Shown piece after piece: positions 20,950 to 38,671 of a stretch of 48,169 bases of DNA. Under the pieces are notes generated by a model. It made no database searches. It was not told the DNA's origin and was given only the letters and a program-made list of their open reading frames with translations. The stretch is taken from assembly GCA_027038275.1 (NCBI GenBank), contig JALVXC010000069.1, positions 1 to 48,169 on the forward strand. The letters are read 5' to 3'. A program made the translations under genes and the position numbers. Origin of the DNA: Campylobacteraceae bacterium (GTDB lineage Bacteria; Campylobacterota; Campylobacteria; Campylobacterales; Sulfurovaceae). Within the stretch, counting starts at the first letter, position 1. Each line of letters starts with the position of its first letter.

Positions 20950-21651
20950 ATGATTGATTTAAAAGATATACCGCTATTCTCTTCATTAGCTAAAGAGCAT
21001 ATAGAAGAGTTAAAAGATACTATACATATTAGACGATATAAAAAAAAGAGTATTCTTTTTTATGAAGGTGACCATGGTGAATACATATATATTTTACTAG
21101 AGGGAAAGGTAAAACTATATAAGACCTCACCCAAAGGGACACAGATTCAGATAAATCGTCTCTTAGCTCCTAGTCTTATTGGTGAGTTTGCCTGTTTTGA
21201 GAAAGAAAATTTCCCTGCAACCTGTGAGTTTATAACTGATGGAGCTGTAGGTTTACTACATTTTGATAAACTCTATGAGTATCTTAACAATGCTACATTC
21301 TCTTTAGAGATTATTAAGTCGCTTACAAGAAAGGTTTTACTACTCTCCTCTTTGGTACATCAAGAGACTATACTCTCTTCAGAAGCAAAAGTGGCAGATT
21401 TACTTATAAAAAAAGAGTCTATTTTTAATCGTCTTAAGAAGAATGAAATTGCCTCTATTTTAAATATCTCTCCTGAGACCTTTTCTCGTATCTTATCAAA
21501 ATTTAAAAAAGAGGCTATTGTTAGCATAGAGAACAATAAACTAGAACTCCTTAACAGAGATGCTCTATTTTATATTATTGAGACAAATAAGATTAAAGAG
21601 TGTAATAACTGTATTGCTAATTTTAAGAGGGAGATTGGGTATGAGAGTTAA
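20950..21651 (+). CDS. CRP/FNR-family transcription regulator, NNR/NssR/DNR-like
   Basis: 233 aa from the ATG at 20950; an earlier in-frame ATG at 20890 lies inside the SUMT gene and adds residues not resembling the family. The cyclic-nucleotide-type beta-barrel (about 5-125, SILFYEGDHGEYIYILLEGKVKLYK) is followed by a long dimer helix and a C-terminal HTH with LKKNEIASILNISPETFSRILSKF (about 173-196). It lacks the N-terminal cysteine cluster of oxygen-sensing FNR, so an NO- or nitrosative-stress sensor of the DNR/NNR/NssR group is more likely. Two cysteines (ECNNC) lie in the last 20 residues. It sits inside the denitrification island, where six FNR-type palindromes were found. Its 3' end overlaps the convergent nirDLGH gene by 29 nt. 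Confidence 0.83.
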   Translation: MIDLKDIPLFSSLAKEHIEELKDTIHIRRYKKKSILFYEGDHGEYIYILLEGKVKLYKTSPKGTQIQINRLLAPSLIGEFACFEKENFPATCEFITDGAVGLLHFDKLYEYLNNATFSLEIIKSLTRKVLLLSSLVHQETILSSEAKVADLLIKKESIFNRLKKNEIASILNISPETFSRILSKFKKEAIVSIENNKLELLNRDALFYIIETNKIKECNNCIANFKREIGYES

Positions 21652-22657
21652 CCTCTTCCCACTCTCTAAAAGCATCATCAAAATAGACAAGTCTCTGCTT
21701 TTTAAACTCTACAGTTGAGTAGAGTTTTCCATACTCTTTTAGTCCTGTCTGCTTTGCCATCTCCTCTATAAGGCTATCACACTCCTCTTGGGTTTTGGCA
21801 TGAACCATAGCAAAGAGATTATATGACCAGTTTGGGTAAATAGGTCTAAGGTAGCAGTGACTTACAGCTGAAAACTCTGCTAACTCTCTACCAATCTCTT
21901 CTGCTCTATCTTCTGGTACTGCCCATACAGACATGGCATTTGCCCCAAATCCTGCTCTTCTATGGTTGAGTATGGTAGCAAAACGACGCATTACCCCACT
22001 CTCTTTTAACTCATGAGCCAACTCAAAAAATCTTTGACTACTCATATTTAGTCTCTCAATAGACTTTTTAAAAGGTTCAGGTATAACCTCTATATCTTTC
22101 TGAAGCTCTTTAATAACAGCTATATGTTCAGAAGTAAGCTCAATATTTCTGTTAGCAACTTTTTTAAGTTTCTCTTTTTTTGCTCGTTTTCCTGTAGTGT
22201 CCATCTTAACAGAGATTTTAAACATCTTTAGTGTTGGAAGCACAATGGCATCTTTAGCATTAGTACGCTCTTTAAGTATCTCTATAGTTTTTTCAAGTCC
22301 TAGTTTAGAATCAGGTGCTACTGCCATAGTAAACCAAATATTATAGTCATGGTTTCTTAAGTAGTTATGACTTACCCCAGGGTGTGCATTGATAATCTTT
22401 GCAACCTCATCTACTCTATCTTTATCTACTTTAAAAGCAACCAAAGAAGATTTATAGCCCAAACGTTTAGTATCAAAAATTGCAGAGGTCTGACGAATAA
22501 TCTTCTCCTCTTTTAGCTTACGTACTGTATTAAGTACCTCTTCTTGGGTAACACCTAATTTTTCAGCAATAGATTCAAAAGGCTTTTCAACCATTGGAAA
22601 GCTATTTTGCATCTCATAAAGTAGTTCATTTTCTGTTTTTTTATCTAATATTTTCAT
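21623..22657 (-). CDS. Siroheme decarboxylase, fused two-domain NirD/L/G/H type
   Basis: 344 aa made of two AsnC/Lrp-like halves: about 1-150 (HTH-like ENELLYEMQNSF..., then SHNYLRNHDYNIWFTMAV) and about 170-335 (HIAVIKELQKDIE..., then SHCYLRPIYPNWSYNLFAMVH). The paired SHxYLR motifs contain the histidines and arginine needed for siroheme decarboxylation to didecarboxysiroheme in heme d1 synthesis. Other denitrifiers use NirD, L, G and H as separate or NirDL-fused proteins; here one fused gene appears to do the whole job. It is divergent from the siroheme dehydrogenase gene, with a shared FNR-type operator. A perfect TATAAT places transcription start one base before the ATG, and no ribosome site is visible, so it may be leaderless. 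Confidence 0.87.
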   Translation of the reverse strand: MKILDKKTENELLYEMQNSFPMVEKPFESIAEKLGVTQEEVLNTVRKLKEEKIIRQTSAIFDTKRLGYKSSLVAFKVDKDRVDEVAKIINAHPGVSHNYLRNHDYNIWFTMAVAPDSKLGLEKTIEILKERTNAKDAIVLPTLKMFKISVKMDTTGKRAKKEKLKKVANRNIELTSEHIAVIKELQKDIEVIPEPFKKSIERLNMSSQRFFELAHELKESGVMRRFATILNHRRAGFGANAMSVWAVPEDRAEEIGRELAEFSAVSHCYLRPIYPNWSYNLFAMVHAKTQEECDSLIEEMAKQTGLKEYGKLYSTVEFKKQRLVYFDDAFREWEEVNSHTQSPS

Positions 22658-24871: not shown

Positions 24872-25549
24872 ATGGCTAATGAAAATGTTTCGGTTTGGAC
24901 CAGCATACCATTTTGGCGACGTTCAGCGGCATGGGTAACAGGATTTGCAACTATTTTGCTTATCTGGCTTACTTTTGATACGATTGGACAGATTTCGATG
25001 GGAACTGATGCAGACCTAAAAAATGGGGTAACAAAAAGAGTACCTGCTCCAACAGTAATCAACTATAAGATTGGTTATGAGATGAGCAAAAAAAGAGGAC
25101 ATGAAGTACCAACTATTGGTGAAAAACAACCATTTTTTGGAAAAGAATGGAGTCCAAAAGAAGCTGCTAATTTATTGCACCTTGGTAAACTAACCTCTCA
25201 GGCTAAAAACTGTATGGATTGTCATACACTATTAGGAAATGGAGCATACTATGCACCAGACCTTACAAAAGCATGGTTAGACCCAGCATGGAATTCTATG
25301 ATACCGATGATTGGTGGTATGATTGGAAAAGAGTTAACAAGAGAAGAAGCAATGGCAGAGTTCTTACAACACCCTTCAAGATATCCTACTCATGCTAGAA
25401 AAATGCCAGACCTTGGTATTACAGCAAGGGAAGCAAAAGGGTTGGTAGCTTTCCTTAAACACATGAGTTCTATCGACACAAATGGTTTCCCAAGAAACTT
25501 CTCAAAAACAGTTGATCAATTCAAGGCAGGAGGCACAAATGCTCACTAG
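24872..25549 (+). CDS. norC: Nitric oxide reductase subunit C (membrane-bound cytochrome c)
   Basis: 225 aa. One N-terminal membrane anchor (about 18-36) and a periplasmic cytochrome c domain with C114-MD-C117-H118, followed by TLLGNGAYYAPDLTKAW, the NorC family pattern. The distal heme ligand is probably the methionine in HARKMPDLGI near 182. NorC receives electrons from soluble cytochromes and passes them to NorB. It is longer than the usual 150 aa because of an extended region between anchor and heme (about 45-100). The stop lies 11 nt inside norB. Confidence 0.92.
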   Translation: MANENVSVWTSIPFWRRSAAWVTGFATILLIWLTFDTIGQISMGTDADLKNGVTKRVPAPTVINYKIGYEMSKKRGHEVPTIGEKQPFFGKEWSPKEAANLLHLGKLTSQAKNCMDCHTLLGNGAYYAPDLTKAWLDPAWNSMIPMIGGMIGKELTREEAMAEFLQHPSRYPTHARKMPDLGITAREAKGLVAFLKHMSSIDTNGFPRNFSKTVDQFKAGGTNAH

Positions 25550-26981
25550 TATTAAAACAAATTCATTTGAAGGCAATAAAGGTAAAGAGCTTGGAATGAT
25601 GTACTTTAGAGTAGCTATTATACTCTTTGGAGCTCAACTTCTTATGGGACTTATTGCTGCTATACAATTTATAGTTCCAGGATTCCTCTTTGAAACATTT
25701 GACTTTAGTGTTGCAAGAATGGTACATATTAATGCCTTAGTAGTTTGGATGCTCTATGCTATGATTGGTTCAGTTTACTTTATGCTTACAGATGAGACAG
25801 AACATGAAGGTGTTGCTATTGGTCTTGGAAAACTAGCATTTTGGGTACTTACAGCTGCTGTAACTGTTGTTGTTCTTGTATTTATATTTGTTCAAGTAGG
25901 TTCAGGTACAGAGGCTAGTATTTGGTTCATTAATGAAGGTAGAGAGTATCTTGAAGCACCTAGATGGGCAGATATTGGCATTGTTGTAGTAGTACTTATT
26001 TTCTACTTTAATGTATTTGCTACCTACATGAAAGGTAAAAAAACAGGTATTATGACTGTTATGGTTGCTAACCTTATGGCACTAGCAGGTCTCTACTTGG
26101 CAGGTATGTTCTTTACAGACAATATCTCTATGGACCAATACTGGTGGTGGTGGGTAATCCACTTATGGGTTGAAGCAACTTGGGAAGTATTTGTAGGTAC
26201 ATTGGCTGCTTATGCACTTATTAAAATTATTGGTGCAAAAAGAGAAGTAGTTGAGATGTGGCTATGGATTGAAGTGCTTATGCTCTTTGGTTCTGGTATA
26301 CTTGGTTTGGGTCACCACTACTTCTGGATTGGTACACCTGAATACTGGTGGGAAATTGGAGCATTATTCTCAGCACTAGAGCCAGTTCCACTTATTGCGA
26401 TGTTTGTTCATGTACTCTATGATTGGGGTAAAGAGCAAGGTATTGCAAAAGCACAAGGTCAAACAGGAACAGTTGCAAACAATACACCCGCTCTATCTTG
26501 GATTGTTACCAATGCATTTGGAAACTTCTTAGGTGCAGGTATTTGGGGATTCTTCCATACATTACCTCAAGTAAACATCTATACACACGGTTCACAGTTT
26601 ACAGCTGCTCATGGTCACTTAGCATTCTTTGGAGCTTATGCAACTATTCTAATTGGAATGTTCTATATGGGTGTTCAATATGCTTATGGTGTAGAGAGAC
26701 TAAAGTCTACATTTAAATCTAAAATGGCAATCTTCCTAATAACATTTGGTGTAGTAGGAATGACTGTTGCCTTAACAATAGCAGGATATGAACAAGTACT
26801 TGTAGAACGTGCAGAGCTTGGTGCTGGTTGGAATGCATTCTTTGTAGCTCAAAACTTACCTTGGTATGTCCAAGCACAACTATGGAGAGCAATTATGGGT
26901 GTAGTTACATTTGCAGGGTTTGTCTTCCTTGTGTTGGATTTACTAACCATTGGTAAAGAAGCAAAAGAGGCACAAGCATAA
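25539..26981 (+). CDS. norB: Nitric oxide reductase subunit B (cNOR catalytic subunit)
   Basis: 480 aa, twelve membrane segments. The ATG at 25539 is chosen because GGAGG lies just upstream and the norC overlap is then 11 nt; an ATG at 25482 has no such site. Ligands as in cNOR: low-spin heme His in MVHINALVVW, non-heme iron His and Glu in VIHLWVEATWE, two His in GLGHHYFWIG, and the heme b3 and b His pair in AAHGHLAFFG. It reduces 2 NO to N2O at the inner membrane without proton pumping. The complete set of ligands separates it from the second, atypical heme-copper pair at 35-37 kb. Confidence 0.95.
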   Translation: MLTSIKTNSFEGNKGKELGMMYFRVAIILFGAQLLMGLIAAIQFIVPGFLFETFDFSVARMVHINALVVWMLYAMIGSVYFMLTDETEHEGVAIGLGKLAFWVLTAAVTVVVLVFIFVQVGSGTEASIWFINEGREYLEAPRWADIGIVVVVLIFYFNVFATYMKGKKTGIMTVMVANLMALAGLYLAGMFFTDNISMDQYWWWWVIHLWVEATWEVFVGTLAAYALIKIIGAKREVVEMWLWIEVLMLFGSGILGLGHHYFWIGTPEYWWEIGALFSALEPVPLIAMFVHVLYDWGKEQGIAKAQGQTGTVANNTPALSWIVTNAFGNFLGAGIWGFFHTLPQVNIYTHGSQFTAAHGHLAFFGAYATILIGMFYMGVQYAYGVERLKSTFKSKMAIFLITFGVVGMTVALTIAGYEQVLVERAELGAGWNAFFVAQNLPWYVQAQLWRAIMGVVTFAGFVFLVLDLLTIGKEAKEAQA

Positions 26982-27343: not shown

Positions 27344-29086
27344 ATGAAGTTAAATAAACTATTAAGTTTAGCGGCAGCAACAAGTTTAGTTACAACTATG
27401 GCAATAGCAGGAACATCAAGCATGGACTTTGCAAAAATTTATGAAAAAGAGTGTCAAGGGTGTCATGGTCCAATTCACCAAGGTGGTGTTGGTAGTGACC
27501 TTAGACCTAAAGCACTTAAAAAGAAAAACAGAGAGATGTTAGCTGAAACTATTTTAAATGGTAGAGAAAATACAGCTATGCCTTCATGGAGTTCAAAGTT
27601 TTCTAAAGATGATGCAACAGGCATGATTGACTGGCTAATGGACTGGAAAAATACAGTTGAATTAAAATTAGACTTAGATAAAGTTAAAAAAACATATACA
27701 AAGTTAGCAGATGTTGATGCTTTAGCTAAAAAATATCCTGTTGGTAAAGATGGTAGCTTAAAGTATAAAGGTGCAGAGGTTAAAAATGTTAAAGATATTA
27801 CATTTGCAACAGAAAGAGATGCCTCTTTAGTTGACTTTATTGACTCAACTACAGGAAAAGTTCTTAGCCGTCATAAAGCTGGATTTGCTGTACACGTTAC
27901 AGTAACAAACAAAGCAAATCCTAGATATGCTTACTCTATTAGCCGTTCAGGAAGATTAACAATGTTTGATATAGGGGCTCCTGGACAACCAGCTGTTGCT
28001 TCTGTACAAGTGGGTCAAGAGTCTCGTGGTCTAGCTGTATCTCCAGATGGAAAATATGTAATGGCAGGAAACTACAACCCAGGTGGTGCAGTACTTTGTG
28101 ATGCTCACACTTTAGAACCACTAAAAGCTTATGATACTAGTCGTGTAATCAATACTGAAGGACAAATTGAGCCTAGCCGTGTAGCTTATATTGCAGATAC
28201 TCCTTATGGACCTTATTTCTCATTTGCACTTAAAGATGCAGGTCATGTATATGTTGTAGACTACTCTAAACCAAACTTCCCTATTGTTGGTGATATTCCA
28301 AATATTGGTAAAGTACTACATGATGCATTCTTAAATGAAAATAAGGGTGAAGATTATGGTCGATATGTACAAGTAGCTTCTCAAGGAAGTGACTTAATGG
28401 GTATTGTTGACCTAAAAACTAAAAAATTAGCTGCAAAAGTTATGACTGGTAAAAAATCTAAACCACACCCAGGTCAAGGTTCTTCTTGGTTCAACAAAAA
28501 AATGGGTAAACAACTAAATGCAACACAAAGTATGAACTTTGGTCAAGTTGTTATTTGGGACTCTCCAAGCTGGAAAGTTGTTAAAAAAGTCAAAACTGCT
28601 GGTGGTGGTTTATTTGTAGGAACAGGAGAAGACACTCCTTGGATTTGGTCTGACTGTGTACTTGGTAAACCTGCTAACTACAACAAAGTTTACTTAATTA
28701 ACAAAGAGACTTTAGAGACAGATAGAATTATTGAAGTTGGTAAGAAAAAAGGAAGACTTATTGACGCTAAAACTAAAAAAGTTCTTCAAGAGTGGGATGC
28801 AACTCAGCATGAAAAAGTACCTGTAAATGAAAAAGCATTTGGTAAAGAGAAAATTATGCCAATGCCAGACCATATAGGTAAAGCTGTAAAAAATCCTGTT
28901 CAACCAAGACTACTTCATGCAGAACCTGCTAACCATGGTAAATGGACTATGATTTCAGAGTGGACTACAGGTAGAATTGGTATCTATGAGTCTGAAACTG
29001 GTAAGTTTATTAAATATATTGAAAACTTAACTACACCTACATTTACATACTCAGTTGAACACAGACAACACGTTCCTGGTGCGTAA
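27344..29086 (+). CDS. nirS: Cytochrome cd1 nitrite reductase (NO-forming)
   Basis: 580 aa from the ATG at 27344, chosen for its AGGAG site and the signal peptide that follows (MKLNKLLSLAAATSLVTTMAIA). The N-terminal cytochrome c domain has C37-QG-C40-H41. The eight-bladed heme d1 propeller contains the proximal heme d1 ligand H184 (GFAVHV) and the two distal catalytic histidines H326 (KVLHDAF) and H375 (KPHPGQG), matching H182, H327 and H369 of the Pseudomonas enzyme. After H375 the sequence diverges from the classical enzyme (FNKKMGKQLNATQSMNFG), and an insertion-like lysine-rich segment lies near 470-520. It reduces nitrite to NO in the periplasm. NirF and heme d1 genes are adjacent. Confidence 0.9.
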   Translation: MKLNKLLSLAAATSLVTTMAIAGTSSMDFAKIYEKECQGCHGPIHQGGVGSDLRPKALKKKNREMLAETILNGRENTAMPSWSSKFSKDDATGMIDWLMDWKNTVELKLDLDKVKKTYTKLADVDALAKKYPVGKDGSLKYKGAEVKNVKDITFATERDASLVDFIDSTTGKVLSRHKAGFAVHVTVTNKANPRYAYSISRSGRLTMFDIGAPGQPAVASVQVGQESRGLAVSPDGKYVMAGNYNPGGAVLCDAHTLEPLKAYDTSRVINTEGQIEPSRVAYIADTPYGPYFSFALKDAGHVYVVDYSKPNFPIVGDIPNIGKVLHDAFLNENKGEDYGRYVQVASQGSDLMGIVDLKTKKLAAKVMTGKKSKPHPGQGSSWFNKKMGKQLNATQSMNFGQVVIWDSPSWKVVKKVKTAGGGLFVGTGEDTPWIWSDCVLGKPANYNKVYLINKETLETDRIIEVGKKKGRLIDAKTKKVLQEWDATQHEKVPVNEKAFGKEKIMPMPDHIGKAVKNPVQPRLLHAEPANHGKWTMISEWTTGRIGIYESETGKFIKYIENLTTPTFTYSVEHRQHVPGA

Positions 29087-29192: not shown

Positions 29193-30308
29193 ATGAAACA
29201 ATTTCTCTTTCTTATCTTACTTTTTTCATCACTTATTTATGCTAAATCTAAATATTTAGACAATCACTCCTGCAAAGAATGCCATGAAAAAATATATGAA
29301 GAGTATCAAACATCAGCACACTCAAAAGGGTATTTTAATGATGAGCTTCATAGAAAAGTAGCCAACAAAGCAAATCCTAAGAAATATGAATGTGCTACTT
29401 GTCACATGCCAATGGCAAATAATTTAAAAGATTTAATTGAAGGTAAAGCTAGACCAGATAAAAATAACAAAACCCATACAGATGCAATATCTTGTTACTT
29501 TTGTCATACTATTGCCTATGTTAAAAAGGCTCATAAATATAACATTAATGTAAAAGCACGACAAGCCCAAAATTATAAACCTACCCTCTATGGACGATTG
29601 CTTAAGCCTGACGATAGCGACAAGCACTCATCTAGTAAAAATCCAATTTATGGTCAAAAGGTTTGTATGGGTTGTCACTCACATAAACTCAATGACAACA
29701 ATGTAACTATTTTTAGAGCCATGAGCGATAAACAAAATAGCATTAAGTGTATAGAGTGCCATATGCCAGAGGTTGAGGGTGGAGCAGAAAAGATGGATAA
29801 ATGCTCTCGTGGACAACATGCTAGTCATAAGTTTTTAGGTATACATGACAAAGAGTTTAGAAAAAAGGGAGTAGATATTAATGCTACTATTAATGACAAA
29901 GAGTTAAAAATAACTTTAACAAATAAGATGGCTCACCCTTTGATTATACAACCTGCAAGAGCAAAATTCTTAAAGATAGAGGTAAAAAGAGATAGTAAAA
30001 CTATTTGGCAAAATTATAAAAAGAATCCAAGTGAAGATAAAAAAGCCTATTTTGCATATAGTTTTAAAAGAGATGGTAAAAAGGTCATAGTACCTGCTAC
30101 AGCAACAGAGGGTAGTGCCAATAACCTAGATACAAAAGAGAGTAAAACTTTAACTTATACTATACCTAATTTAAAAAAAGGGGATAAAATAGTAATCTCT
30201 TTTTATGTTCAATTAGCAAAAAGTGATTGTACAAAAGCAATAGAGTTAGAAGAGAAAAGTTTACTAAAACCAATACTAATAAAGAGTATAATACTATCTA
30301 AATTATAA
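29193..30308 (+). CDS. Pentaheme c-type cytochrome, periplasmic (nir-linked)
   Basis: 371 aa with a signal peptide (about 1-17) and five CxxCH motifs: CKECH, CATCH, CYFCH, CMGCH and CIECH, all in the first 210 residues. Several more histidines (SAHSKG, HSHK, HASH) could be distal ligands. The C-terminal third has no heme and looks beta-rich (LKITLTNKMAHPLIIQPARA). It belongs to the cytochrome c554-like multiheme group by heme spacing; the electron partner is unknown. A paralogue with the same architecture lies at 37529. It sits between nirS and nirF, so electron delivery in nitrite or NO reduction is plausible. Confidence 0.85.
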   Translation: MKQFLFLILLFSSLIYAKSKYLDNHSCKECHEKIYEEYQTSAHSKGYFNDELHRKVANKANPKKYECATCHMPMANNLKDLIEGKARPDKNNKTHTDAISCYFCHTIAYVKKAHKYNINVKARQAQNYKPTLYGRLLKPDDSDKHSSSKNPIYGQKVCMGCHSHKLNDNNVTIFRAMSDKQNSIKCIECHMPEVEGGAEKMDKCSRGQHASHKFLGIHDKEFRKKGVDINATINDKELKITLTNKMAHPLIIQPARAKFLKIEVKRDSKTIWQNYKKNPSEDKKAYFAYSFKRDGKKVIVPATATEGSANNLDTKESKTLTYTIPNLKKGDKIVISFYVQLAKSDCTKAIELEEKSLLKPILIKSIILSKL

Positions 30309-33745: not shown

Positions 33746-33835
33746 TTATTCATCCTCTTTATCCATTACAAAGCCTATAACAAGTAAAGCTACAACAAAG
33801 AGTGACACCATACCAATATAAAAGTAATGTAACAT
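33746..33835 (-). CDS. 29-aa single-span membrane peptide, translationally coupled
   Basis: ATG at 33835 overlaps the stop of the upstream YcxB-like gene (TAATG), with GGAGG 8 nt before. The product, MLHYFYIGMVSLFVVALLVI followed by GFVMDKEDE, is one membrane helix with an acidic end, like small regulatory or oxidase-associated peptides. Coupling and a strong ribosome site favour a real gene. Function unknown. Confidence 0.5.
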   Translation of the reverse strand: MLHYFYIGMVSLFVVALLVIGFVMDKEDE

Positions 33836-34335
33836 TATTTTAACCTCCCATACTTTTTAGCCATAGATTTAAATTGGCTCTTCTCTTCAAGTGACTTAAA
33901 TCCTGAAGATGGAATATAGTGAAAGTTTGGATATTTGTAGAGCATAATATCATCACCCAAGCTTACCACTTCGTCTATCTCTTCCCAACTCCAATGCTCT
34001 TTTTTAGGAGCAATAAGCTCAAAACCATCTTCATCAATAGTTAGTCTAATCTCTTTATCTTTAAATTCAGACTCTTCAAATGACTTTATGGCACGTCTTT
34101 GTGCTATCCACTTTTTACCATAGTACCAATAGAAAAGCACAATAGTTGTAAAGAGCAAAATAGCAAATACCTCTTTTTTAAGAGCTACTACAATACCATA
34201 CTGCAATAGAGCAATAAAAAACCACCCAATATAGCGTCTACTTGAGTGTTCAAACTGATACTTGTAAGAGGCTTCAAAGAGCTTCTCTACATTTTCTCTG
34301 TTCCAAATATAACTTACTTCAATACTTTTAGACAT
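33835..34335 (-). CDS. YcxB-like membrane protein
   Basis: 166 aa from the ATG at 34335 (MSKSIEVSYIW); an ATG six codons earlier is inside the upstream gene. Two adjacent membrane segments (about 34-50 and 53-70) are followed by a cytoplasmic beta-rich domain with IRLTIDEDGFELIAPKKEHWSWEEIDEVVSLGDDIMLY, the PH-like pattern of YcxB family proteins. The function of this family is not established. It overlaps the preceding hypothetical gene by 8 nt, and the 29-aa peptide follows, forming a three-gene unit. Confidence 0.65.
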   Translation of the reverse strand: MSKSIEVSYIWNRENVEKLFEASYKYQFEHSSRRYIGWFFIALLQYGIVVALKKEVFAILLFTTIVLFYWYYGKKWIAQRRAIKSFEESEFKDKEIRLTIDEDGFELIAPKKEHWSWEEIDEVVSLGDDIMLYKYPNFHYIPSSGFKSLEEKSQFKSMAKKYGRLK

Positions 34336-34933
34336 GCTCTTCACACGTTGCAATAATCAAATCTGATTTTTTAATGCATCCTCTCTTTTCAAGTTTCTCT
34401 ATCATCTCTAATGTTTTAATATATTTTTCTTTAAATATTTTACTATTTATGGCATATTTTTTTTGCTCTTTTTTAGCATACCAATAGGCTAAGGCAATAG
34501 ATGAAGCAAAAAGAGAGTAGATAAGGATTTGCCACTCTTTTAAGTTTAATAAGACAATAAAATATTGTACTGAAAAGAGAACAAAAAACTCAATAGAGAA
34601 GATAATAACTAGAGTTGAACTTTGTTCAAAATCTAGTGTATACTTCTCTATATCTCTTAAGTGAGCTAAATTTTGGTTAATCTCTTCAGCCTCTTTTTTA
34701 CATGAATCATCTATTTTAGACAAATCTATGTCTTTAATATGAATATTGCTAAGGTTATACTCTATATTTATCTGTTCATAATCTTCTAAAATTTGAGGGT
34801 TTGTCTTTATGATTTCTAAGATTTGGTCTTCGGTTGGATTGTTTGTTCCTGCTATCTTTTGAACATCTTGTAAAACTAAATCGTACAAACCAATGTTTTT
34901 TATTTCATTTGCAACGCGTTCTAGGTGTATCAA
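34328..34933 (-). CDS. Two-helix membrane protein, unknown function
   Basis: 201 aa if it starts at the TTG at 34933, which has AAAAGGA just upstream. An ATG at 34999 is also open, but the 22 residues it adds (MKFFLVPTEMVGTSGT...) are the translation of a palindromic repeat and are unlikely to be original protein. The N-terminal part (about 1-100) is acidic and helical; two membrane segments lie at about 107-127 and 132-148; the C-terminus is a lysine-rich coiled helix ending in two cysteines. No family recognised. It overlaps the YcxB-like gene and is probably co-expressed with it. Confidence 0.55.
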   Translation of the reverse strand: MIHLERVANEIKNIGLYDLVLQDVQKIAGTNNPTEDQILEIIKTNPQILEDYEQINIEYNLSNIHIKDIDLSKIDDSCKKEAEEINQNLAHLRDIEKYTLDFEQSSTLVIIFSIEFFVLFSVQYFIVLLNLKEWQILIYSLFASSIALAYWYAKKEQKKYAINSKIFKEKYIKTLEMIEKLEKRGCIKKSDLIIATCEEHV

Positions 34934-34958
34934 GTTTTTCCTTTTATTTAATGTTCCA

Positions 34959-34987
34959 CTCGTTCCTACCATCTCGGTGGGAACGAG
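34959..34987. repeat. Palindromic repeat (CTCGTTCC type)
   Basis: CTCGTTCCTACC (34959-34970) and GGTGGGAACGAG (34976-34987) form a 12-bp stem with one G-T pair and a 5-nt loop. The CTCGTTCC arm is shared with the element at 248-360. It lies at the 5' end of the hypothetical gene and is translated if the ATG at 34999 is used. Confidence 0.55.
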
Positions 34988-34997
34988 AAAAAATTTC

Positions 34998-35025
34998 ATA
35001 TGGTGCGATTGCTATTGCACCATAT
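34998..35025 (-). terminator. Terminator of the gNOR-like operon
   Basis: On the minus strand ATATGGTGC and GCACCATAT form a 9-bp stem (35025-35017 with 35006-34998), followed by a T-rich run (34996-34988). It starts 3 nt after the end of the subunit I gene. Confidence 0.6.
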
Positions 35026-35027
35026 AA

Positions 35028-36695
35028 TTATACTTTATGATTCTCAGCCACAGTTTCAGGCTCAATACCATAAGAAGCTGTTTTATCTTCAGCTGGTAAG
35101 AAGATTCCAATAAGTCCTTTAATTCCAACACTCATAACAATGTTAAATAGGAACAAGAACCATGCTACAAGAACCATTGTTCCACAAATAGCAGCGAGTA
35201 CCATAAGTGTATTAAATTCTCCATTTACATAGAGGTGACGGCGAAGCATTCCATCGAGTCCTGCCATACCTGCAAAAGCACCCATACCTACACCACCTAC
35301 AAGGTAGAGCCAAAAGTGTGTCCATGTAAGTTTTTTTGAAAACATTTTAGTATTGTTAGTAACAATTGGCCATAGTACATAAACAGCAGAGTATAGAGTC
35401 ATATAAAGCCCTACAATAAGTGCAATATGAACATGAGCAAAAATAATCCATTGTGTATTGTGTAAGATTCTGTTCATTCCCATATCTGCTTGAATAATAG
35501 CAGCAGGAACGGCAAGACCAAATCCAACTAATCCACCTAAAAGATAAGCTAACTCTGGAGTTATTTTAAGTGGTCTAGCTTTCCATAGTGTTACTAAAGT
35601 AATAAAGAGTGCTAAACCTTGTGTTAATAATTCAAATGCTGTTACCATTTCTCCTGAGATAAGTTTCATCATCTCTGGTTGTCCTTGGTCAGCTAAAAGG
35701 TGGTGAGACCATACCATCCATGAGACAAGAAGTTCCAACATCAACGCTGCACGAGCTACGTTCTCCATAAAGAGTTTTTGTCCTGTAATGAGTGTAGCAA
35801 GTAAATACCAAGAACCAGCAACATAGATAAGTACTAAACCATCAGCTACAAGGTCAAGACCCCACCAGAAGTAGTTTTTATAAAGAAGAGCATCAATAGC
35901 TCCTACATTTAAAGGGTGTCCAGTTGCATCAAATAGTAGGTAAACTAAAACTAAAATACCAGCACCTAAAATAACAATTGCATCTAAAAAGGTATCTACT
36001 GTACCACGGAATATAGCAACGACAGGAAGTGCTAACGCAGGTTCTTTAGTATATGGTGGTTTCCCTCGAAGTTTATTCCAAAGGTTAAGCATACCATCAA
36101 TACCAAATCCACTAATAAGAAGCTCTTTGGTTGTTTTATCTTTATGTACACCAACTCTTTGGAATATAGTTGCATAGATATTGTAGATAAATCCTAATGT
36201 TCCCACCATAATTAAAGCTACACCAACAATAAATACAATACCACCAAATACAGAGAATTGTGTAGTATCAGCAGGTAAAGGCCAATATAGTGTATAGAGT
36301 GGAGCATAACCTGTAAAGAATGCAGATAACCATGCTAAAGCAGTACCAATAGTAATTAGTAACCAAACTGCATTAGCTAATTTAATGCTATATAGAGGTT
36401 TTTTAGTCAAAAATGGTACTAAAAACATAAACGCAGCAAAAACTAACTGATAGGTTGAACCAAAAATCCCTACAATAGGGTGTACCGTCATAATAGAAAA
36501 GTAGTGTTCAGGGTGATAAAACATATGAGGAATAGGTGCATGAGCCTGTACAAGTCTCATAATCATCCCTTCAATCGCAACTAAACCAAAAAAGAGAAAA
36601 CTCATGACCACTGCTCTTAGTGTTACCTTTTGTAAAGCATTTAAGCTTTTATGGTCAAAATTTGTACCATTGATTAAATTATTCATTATACTCAT
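35028..36695 (-). CDS. Atypical heme-copper reductase subunit I, gNOR-like (putative NO reductase)
   Basis: 555 aa, about 14 membrane segments. Heme ligands are present: H72 (TVHPIVG) and the pair H421/H423 (FAHVHIAL). The CuB pair H331-H332 is present (WSHHLLAD), but the third CuB ligand, the helix VI histidine (HPEVY in oxidases, HLWVE in NorB), is D281 in WGLDLVADG. The active-site tyrosine of oxidases is also absent. An Asp replacing this His is, as I recall, the mark of the proposed gNOR family of NO reductases. The partner gene upstream lacks a CuA site. A shared FNR-type operator with the nir/nor genes supports NO reduction. It overlaps the subunit II gene by one base. No activity can be proved from sequence. 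Confidence 0.72.
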   Translation of the reverse strand: MSIMNNLINGTNFDHKSLNALQKVTLRAVVMSFLFFGLVAIEGMIMRLVQAHAPIPHMFYHPEHYFSIMTVHPIVGIFGSTYQLVFAAFMFLVPFLTKKPLYSIKLANAVWLLITIGTALAWLSAFFTGYAPLYTLYWPLPADTTQFSVFGGIVFIVGVALIMVGTLGFIYNIYATIFQRVGVHKDKTTKELLISGFGIDGMLNLWNKLRGKPPYTKEPALALPVVAIFRGTVDTFLDAIVILGAGILVLVYLLFDATGHPLNVGAIDALLYKNYFWWGLDLVADGLVLIYVAGSWYLLATLITGQKLFMENVARAALMLELLVSWMVWSHHLLADQGQPEMMKLISGEMVTAFELLTQGLALFITLVTLWKARPLKITPELAYLLGGLVGFGLAVPAAIIQADMGMNRILHNTQWIIFAHVHIALIVGLYMTLYSAVYVLWPIVTNNTKMFSKKLTWTHFWLYLVGGVGMGAFAGMAGLDGMLRRHLYVNGEFNTLMVLAAICGTMVLVAWFLFLFNIVMSVGIKGLIGIFLPAEDKTASYGIEPETVAENHKV

Positions 36696-37315
36696 TATTT
36701 TTTACCTCCATCTTCTTTACATCCGACAACAGTAAGCCATTTTTTAACTTTCATTAAGTCTTCTCCTGTTTCAGGGTCATACTCAGCAGGTCCAGAGTAC
36801 TCTGTACTTACTACATCAAATACTCCATTATGGTTAAATGTCCATAAAATATCATTAGAGTCTAAGATACCATTAACATCTGTTCCTGGGTTAACTTGCA
36901 TCTGCATTGCCATAGTTCCATCTTGTCTAAATAATCCAAAACCATAAACTAAGTCTCTACTTTTTACATCAAATTCAATAGTTTGTCCACATTGTACGGT
37001 TACATGTTTTGGCATATTAATCCATTTATGTTTAGCTACTTCAAATTTATAACTTGCATCAGGTTTTATCTCGTGTCTCATAATATCTTGTGATACCCAA
37101 GGGATTGTGTTGTAGGTAAATATATGGTGTCCTACTCCCATAGCCACTAAAAATCCAATATAGCCATAGAATGGTATACGTACTTTTGATGGTACTTTCT
37201 CTTTACGTGTTAGGTTATATCCAAACCACGCGATGATTGAGATAATCATAAAAGCATATATAGTATATGCTACATTATGAAAAGCCAATAACTCTAATGA
37301 GCTTGAAAAGGTCAT
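36695..37315 (-). CDS. Subunit II of the gNOR-like reductase, CuA ligands lost
   Basis: 206 aa with two membrane segments (about 15-33 and 48-66) and a cupredoxin-like periplasmic domain (about 95-205). In cytochrome oxidase subunit II the CuA site is CxExCxxxH; here the aligned stretch is S170-T-E172-Y-S174-G-P-A-E178, so both cysteines and the histidine are replaced (Ser, Ser, Glu), and the upstream His is Tyr124 in DLVYGFGLF. It therefore cannot hold the dinuclear copper, and electrons must enter by another route. The gene leads the operon behind an FNR-type promoter, with GGAGAAAAG before the ATG. Confidence 0.75.
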   Translation of the reverse strand: MTFSSSLELLAFHNVAYTIYAFMIISIIAWFGYNLTRKEKVPSKVRIPFYGYIGFLVAMGVGHHIFTYNTIPWVSQDIMRHEIKPDASYKFEVAKHKWINMPKHVTVQCGQTIEFDVKSRDLVYGFGLFRQDGTMAMQMQVNPGTDVNGILDSNDILWTFNHNGVFDVVSTEYSGPAEYDPETGEDLMKVKKWLTVVGCKEDGGKK

Positions 37316-37466: not shown

Positions 37467-37508
37467 TTGATATAGGTCAAATTATTATTATTTTGAATAA
37501 GCTATAAT
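37467..37508 (+). promoter_or_regulatory. FNR/NNR-type operator and -10 of the second pentaheme cytochrome gene
   Basis: TTGATATAGGTCAA (37467-37480) matches at 9 of 10 defined bases. A perfect TATAAT (37503-37508) begins 29.5 bp from the centre. Predicted start about 37515, leader about 14 nt with AAAGG. The rest of 37316-37528 is AT-rich with no gene. Confidence 0.65.
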
Positions 37509-37528: not shown

Positions 37529-38671
37529 ATGAGCTTTAAACTCTCTTCTCTTGCGTTACTGTTGCTTTTTCCATTATATGGAAACACAATACTAGAGAAT
37601 GCTACTTGTAAAAAATGTCATTCCACTATTTTTGCTGAGTATCAAAACTCTATTCATGCAAAATCATCTACTTTTAAAGACCCTGTCCATAAAGCCGTAT
37701 GGGACAAACACCCTGCTAAATTAAAGGGCAACTATAAGTGTGCTAAATGCCATACTCCATCTGACCATGATTTAATTTTAGGTAAAACTAAACTCTCTAA
37801 AAATACTATTCAAGAGAGTGAACCTATCTCTTGTCAAGCGTGTCATACTATAGAGAGTATAGAGGAGCATAAAAAGATAAATAAAAATATATTTACCAAA
37901 AATAGAAAGCTGTTCTTCTCTGCCGATAAACAAAGAGAGGGTAAAATAGTTAAGTTTAAAGAGGAGAGTTCATTTTTTGGGCTTGTTACTAAAACAACAG
38001 GTTCACCATATCATGATATAAACTACAGCAATAGAAATTTTTATAATGGAGATATGTGTCTAGGGTGTCACGACCATAAACAGAATGGCAAAGGGTTTGC
38101 AGTTTGTGATATGCAGATTAAAAAAGGTAACTCAAAAGAGACCTGCATCTCTTGTCATATGCCAAAGTTACAAGGAAGCTTTGTAAATCTTAAAGATACA
38201 AAAAAACATGCTTTTCATGGTATCTCTATTCATACTACAGATGTTTCTCTCCTTTCAAAATATATCAAGCTATCTATTAATAGAATATCAAAAGGGTTTG
38301 AGGTAACTATAAAAAATGAAGCTACCCACACTCTTTTTGCTCAACCTCTAAGACTAAATCAACTTCGTGTAACAATAGAGAGAGATGGTAAAAATATATC
38401 ACTTAAGAAAAAGAATTTTTTACGTATTATAGGTAAAGATGGTAAACCTGCTATGCCGTGGGTAGCAGATAGTGAACTTAAAAATACCCTTATTAAGGCT
38501 CATGAGGTACGAAAAGTAACTTACGATACACCTTTAAAAAAGGGAGATAGTGTAGTTTTAGAGTTTGGTTACTATCTTGTTAATCCTAAGAGTGCTAAAA
38601 AGCTAGGCATTACAGATAAGAGTGTGATGAAGTTTATAATATTAACGAAGAAGAGGGTTAAAATCTTGTAG
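37529..38671 (+). CDS. Pentaheme c-type cytochrome, periplasmic (gNOR-linked paralogue)
   Basis: 380 aa with a signal peptide (about 1-18) and five CxxCH motifs: CKKCH, CAKCH, CQACH, CLGCH and CISCH. Heme order, the EYQNSIHAKS segment, the CHDHK motif and a heme-free beta-rich C-terminus (FEVTIKNEATHTLFAQPLRL) match the cytochrome at 29193, so they are paralogues. It is transcribed divergently from the CuA-less reductase and has its own FNR-type promoter, so it is a good candidate electron donor for that enzyme. The specific partner is inferred. Confidence 0.85.
   Translation: MSFKLSSLALLLLFPLYGNTILENATCKKCHSTIFAEYQNSIHAKSSTFKDPVHKAVWDKHPAKLKGNYKCAKCHTPSDHDLILGKTKLSKNTIQESEPISCQACHTIESIEEHKKINKNIFTKNRKLFFSADKQREGKIVKFKEESSFFGLVTKTTGSPYHDINYSNRNFYNGDMCLGCHDHKQNGKGFAVCDMQIKKGNSKETCISCHMPKLQGSFVNLKDTKKHAFHGISIHTTDVSLLSKYIKLSINRISKGFEVTIKNEATHTLFAQPLRLNQLRVTIERDGKNISLKKKNFLRIIGKDGKPAMPWVADSELKNTLIKAHEVRKVTYDTPLKKGDSVVLEFGYYLVNPKSAKKLGITDKSVMKFIILTKKRVKIL

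Follow-up and report, generated by a model that had tools for sequence, protein, structure and literature searches.

A pair of genes from a sulfur-vent type bacterium encodes subunits I and II of a heme-copper superfamily enzyme in which one metal-site histidine and the CuA ligands are replaced, and the question is which reaction such an enzyme would carry out. The genes lie on contig G000:C69 (48 kb) of a 2.54 Mb genome with a completeness estimate of 97%; the window referred to below is the whole stretch of DNA analysed, 48,169 nucleotides. A sequence-only reading had proposed an NO reductase of the gNOR kind at 35028-37315. An open reading frame check found both genes there, on the reverse strand and with a stop/start overlap, and the subunit II gene adjoins the subunit I gene in nearly all gNOR loci. 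The conserved gNOR locus is longer than that reading had it, extending to 33835 with two further genes past subunit I (Table 1).

Table 1. Features of the gNOR locus and of the nir/nor region in the window.
Feature	Position	Strand	Details
CRP/FNR-family regulator	20950..21651	+	recognition helix ETFSR is FNR-like; the FNR cysteine cluster at the N-terminus is missing
Fused siroheme decarboxylase	21623..22657	-	
cNOR	24872..26981	+	norC 24872-25549, norB 25482-26981; helix VI motif HLWVEA, which contains the His and the Glu
nirS, cytochrome cd1 nitrite reductase	27344..29086	+	presumed NO source
Pentaheme c-type cytochrome	29193..30308	+	beside nirS
gNOR-linked small membrane protein	33835..34353	-	YcxB-like in most relatives
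gNOR-linked membrane protein	34328..34999	-	core of about 201 aa; helical domain and two probable membrane helices
Two RNA hairpins	34925..35035	-	z -5.7
gNOR subunit I, catalytic, norGH type	35028..36695	-	555 aa; Pfam COX1, alignments, 111-sequence invariance
Subunit I residues	subunit I	-	heme ligands H72, H421, H423; metal-site H331, H332, D281; oxidase Tyr position D285; from alignments
gNOR subunit II	36695..37315	-	206 aa; N-terminal membrane helices and a putative cupredoxin-like domain with CuA ligands replaced
FNR/NNR-type box TTGATATAAATCAA	37380..37393	-	about 65-78 bp upstream of subunit II start codon
Second FNR-type box	37467..37480	+	1 mismatch; about 49-62 bp upstream of divergent pentaheme cytochrome gene
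Pentaheme c-type cytochrome	37529..38671	+	divergent from gNOR

Subunit I matched Pfam COX1 with an E-value of 2.8e-49, and NCBIfam returned only CtaD/SoxB matches far below the cut-off. Searched against the PDB on its own, the sequence found no match and a profile was required; this gNOR profile (A2), built from 16 relatives, had the Thermus ba3 oxidase as its best PDB match (E 1.5e-11). In that alignment the histidine of the ba3 motif GHPIVY falls opposite D281 and its tyrosine opposite D285. We compared 35 aligned sequences comprising gNOR, A-, B- and C-type oxidases, cNOR, qNOR and one eNOR-like sequence. The D281 column holds His in every non-gNOR sequence, and the D285 column holds Tyr in the A and B types, Ala in the C type, Glu in cNOR and qNOR and Gln in the eNOR-like sequence. 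Helix VI of the present enzyme reads FWWGLDLVADG, so that the HxWVE motif of cNOR and qNOR, with its His and Glu, is absent, as is the cross-linked tyrosine found in A- and B-type oxidases four residues past the helix VI histidine; D281 and D285 stand there instead.

Across 111 distinct sequences the residues H72, H331, H332, H421, H423, D281 and D285 are all invariant (111/111), hence the pattern of the two aspartates is neither a sequencing error nor a product of chance. The invariance of both aspartates together with all the remaining ligands points to a working, selected site. These data bear out the earlier proposals that D281 occupies the helix VI histidine position, with no other histidine in its place, and that the heme histidines and the CuB histidine pair are kept. 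That reading was also right about the missing cross-linked tyrosine, and overlooked the Asp285 at the tyrosine position, which is the residue that defines gNOR in the literature.

The predicted structure of subunit I has the superfamily fold, and its comparison with oxidases and with a cNOR gave Z of about 32-35. Foldseek and VIA-align were rejected as type classifiers, as they report the general heme-copper fold only, with cbb3, aa3 and cNOR all near Z 32-35. At the active site the model has low confidence, with a pLDDT of about 54-57 across residues 271-290 (helix VI), and the metal geometry cannot be confirmed from it.

Subunit II gave a weak match (E 0.0078) to the CuA subunit II domain of Thermus, with the segment STEYSG opposite the CuA loop. 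Among 111 distinct subunit II sequences, the CuA histidine is replaced by Y124 in all 111, the first cysteine by S170 in 109, and the second cysteine, at S174, by Ser in 100 and Ala in 11. Glu172 is retained throughout (111/111) and the position of the last CuA histidine is variable. The CuA site is thus erased, as the sequence-only reading had stated, and because its ligands are replaced across so many distinct sequences the loss is a family trait rather than local decay. In the same subunit Cys199 is conserved in every sequence (111/111) and Cys109 in most (87/111); these cysteines possibly form a disulfide, or a feature that took the place of the lost CuA.

The gNOR kind has reportedly been known from sequence since 2008, through Sievert et al. 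and Hemp and Gennis in that year and later through Murali et al. in 2024, and the present finding confirms this known family. An Asp at the oxidase tyrosine position is the published mark of gNOR, listed for Sulfurimonas, Sulfurovum and Persephonella (PMC8756737 Table A4). PMC3475470, with reference to Hemp & Gennis 2008 and to Sievert et al. 2008, states that in certain NORs one metal histidine is replaced by Asp. The genes are named norGH and the donor is described as quinone (‘quinone-oxidizing’; PMC8906906), and gNOR is counted as an NOR proposed by phylogenomics and not characterised (PMC11388526). Accounts of its energy conservation conflict, being non-electrogenic in one (PMC8906906) and with predicted proton translocation in another (PMC6349771). 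Our protein shares with gNOR the Asp at the tyrosine position, the exchange of a metal His for Asp, a subunit II that is putatively of the cupredoxin type, the lack of a c-type heme subunit and a host of the Sulfurimonas/Sulfurovum type. No tested feature differs from published gNOR, and the two linked membrane-protein genes described below are absent from the cited gNOR literature. The earlier assignment to gNOR is upheld on these grounds: Asp at Tyr, metal His to Asp, CuA loss and the expected host group.

With cNOR (NorBC) the enzyme shares the presumed reaction and the heme and metal histidines except the one replaced in gNOR; unlike gNOR, cNOR has three metal histidines and a cytochrome c subunit, and Glu takes the place of D285. 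The other non-canonical NORs (bNOR, eNOR and sNOR) have been related to B-family oxidases (PMC11388526). In these B-family NORs (sNOR, eNOR, bNOR/CuANOR) the tyrosine is replaced too, but by Asn or Gln (PMC8756737), and bNOR and sNOR carry CuA (PMC3475470). The ba3 oxidase, although it tops the PDB matches of the gNOR profile, differs from gNOR in having both the tyrosine and CuA. In our tree all 12 gNOR rows group together (support 100/100, stem 1.77) in a clade apart from cNOR, qNOR and the A, B and C types; the rows are without a published reference gNOR (e.g. that of S. denitrificans), though the same protein is present in records under the names Sulfurimonas and Sulfurovum. Approximately unbiased tests allowed gNOR to be placed with the B type (p-AU 0.33) and with cNOR/qNOR (p-AU 0.20). 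The gNOR profile scored A/B oxidases at up to 87 bits and cNOR/qNOR below 2 bits, and so does not recognise cNOR; an A-type sequence gave the highest score in the comparison set. Clustering with O2 reductases, which would have counted against gNOR, is thus seen in part: the profile scores lie nearer the A/B oxidases, but a link to B-family oxidases has been described for bNOR, eNOR and sNOR as well.

The genomic surroundings point to nitrogen oxides. Also encoded on the contig are norC, norB and nirS, nirJ-like and nirF-like genes, a fused siroheme decarboxylase and a regulator of the CRP/FNR type, so that gNOR is present beside a normal cNOR, as had been noted before. The siroheme decarboxylase joins the alpha and beta parts (AhbA/AhbB, NirDLGH kind) in one protein. 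The window further encodes two pentaheme c-type cytochromes that are related to each other and resemble cytochrome c554; one gene lies next to nirS and the other is divergent from gNOR. The latter was rejected as a fixed gNOR partner, since it adjoins gNOR in only 5/85 loci. Three perfect copies of TTGAT-N4-ATCAA occur in the window, against 0.15 expected, and they precede the heme d1 genes (22693), the norCB run (24409) and gNOR (37380). Among 105 gNOR loci, 51 have a perfect box in the 300 bp that precede subunit II, mostly near -70, whereas shuffled upstream regions gave a mean of 0.1 and coding controls 0/102. These shared FNR-type boxes support the proposed co-regulation with the nir/nor genes, and the predicted sites suggest that gNOR and nir/nor are under a common FNR/NNR-type regulator. 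The CRP/FNR-family protein encoded in the window is a candidate reader of the boxes, judging by the DNA specificity expected of its recognition helix.

The relatives with the same protein that the genome collection yielded are Campylobacterota, with record names including Sulfurovum, Sulfurimonas and Nitratifractor. At an identity of at least 58%, fragments included, gNOR was counted in 47 of 397 phylum genomes. Using a cut-off of about 650 bits, cNOR was found in 41 of these 47 and in 74 of the 397 overall, a co-occurrence well above expectation (hypergeometric 5.5e-29, with kinship ignored in the counts). A NirS match (E 1e-40) was present in 34 of the 47, two of them at only 31% identity. 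The other 13 had no NirS match at this cut-off, hence gNOR is not tied to NirS denitrification. In two draft genomes (G177 and G399) NirS and gNOR are present and no cNOR or qNOR was found, and for this reason gNOR may be their NO reductase.

An O2-reducing function has to be weighed against NO reduction, since the gNOR profile is nearest to A/B oxidases and not to cNOR/qNOR, and searches of the host genome (97% complete) for cbb3, aa3 and bd oxidases found none. On such a reading the protein would be a divergent terminal O2 reductase that has lost the tyrosine and one metal histidine by chance. We consider this very unlikely, because the helix VI metal histidine is kept in all oxidases compared, with the tyrosine four residues on in the A and B types, and because the location and the FNR-type box point to nitrogen oxides. 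In C-type oxidases the tyrosine sits on another helix. The idea that the host lacks all O2 reductases was itself discarded: a near relative (G003), whose gNOR is 99% identical, has a cbb3 oxidase, so the absence in the host is probably an assembly gap. The loss of the metal histidine and of CuA could instead mark a catalytically dead or NO-sensing paralogue, which we find more improbable still, given the full invariance of both aspartates and all remaining ligands in 111 sequences.

A role in NO detoxification, rather than in respiration, would leave the chemistry of gNOR unchanged, with low-flux removal of NO by gNOR and denitrification carried by cNOR. This would suit the gNOR genomes that have no NirS match, four of which (G058, G191, G272 and G315) also lack a cNOR match. 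The FNR-type boxes common to nir/nor and the strong co-occurrence with cNOR speak against it, and we regard an exclusive detoxifying role as possible but rather doubtful; both roles may be true.

In our judgement the enzyme is very probably a gNOR, that is, a two-subunit heme-copper membrane enzyme most likely catalysing 2 NO + 2 H+ + 2 e- -> N2O + H2O. NO reduction is assigned by family, since the cited literature describes no biochemical characterisation of any gNOR. The sequence shows a low-spin heme site (H72 and H423), an active-site heme (H421) and a second metal site made up of H331, H332 and, where the third histidine would be, Asp281, with Asp285 at the position of the cross-linked tyrosine. 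The cofactors are likely to be two b-type hemes and a non-heme metal, either copper or iron, with two His and one Asp as ligands. Two NO would couple at the heme and the Asp/His/His metal site, and D285 may serve in proton delivery or hydrogen bonding, as the Glu of cNOR does. Because CuA is absent from subunit II, we infer that electrons come from quinol (menaquinol), which would reduce the low-spin heme directly. Beside cNOR, gNOR would then provide a second NO sink under denitrifying conditions, fed by the quinone pool and not by cytochrome c. That the two enzymes divide their work by different NO levels is a guess.

Our new observation is that two small membrane-protein genes, both in the same direction as gNOR, are linked to it. 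Of 397 phylum genomes, 39 have the larger gene, which is adjacent to subunit I; every one of the 39 also has gNOR, and in nearly all the two adjoin. The smaller was found in 18 of 397, again all 18 with gNOR. Among 85 gNOR loci the larger gene is present in 74 and the smaller in 63. The larger gene is not universal with gNOR, because it has no match in the gNOR branch nearest L024 (G058, G104, G268, G322, G372 and G430); in some genomes (L047, L165) it is tandemly duplicated. Its true start, judged by orthologues, is probably the TTG at 34933. The product has no convincing Pfam or NCBIfam match, and its model (pLDDT 81) shows two long helices compatible with membrane spans; a fold search gave no Foldseek match with E <0.8 and no Z >7. 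In the family of the smaller protein, Pfam YcxB is matched by 8 of 10 members. Two strong RNA hairpins separate subunit I from the larger gene, which makes co-transcription uncertain. The first is followed by a T run and resembles an intrinsic terminator; the second (CGTTCCCACCGAGATGGTAGGAACG) is REP-like, with four other sites in the genome at 1-2 mismatches. Both proteins are most likely gNOR assembly factors or accessory subunits. More tentatively, and with the balance against it, the larger protein could be a dedicated third partner of gNOR, doing a CuA-like job (quinol docking or electron entry) or building the Asp/His/His site.

Within the heme-copper superfamily a metal site with Asp for His is unusual, and gNOR belongs to those NO reductases whose function has been put forward from sequence. 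The locus offers testable material, namely a gNOR with fixed gene partners and a clear control box, and the two undescribed downstream genes may be required for a working enzyme. In G177 and G399 gNOR is the sole NO reductase found beside NirS, and in Campylobacterota of sulfidic habitats N2O output may depend on gNOR.
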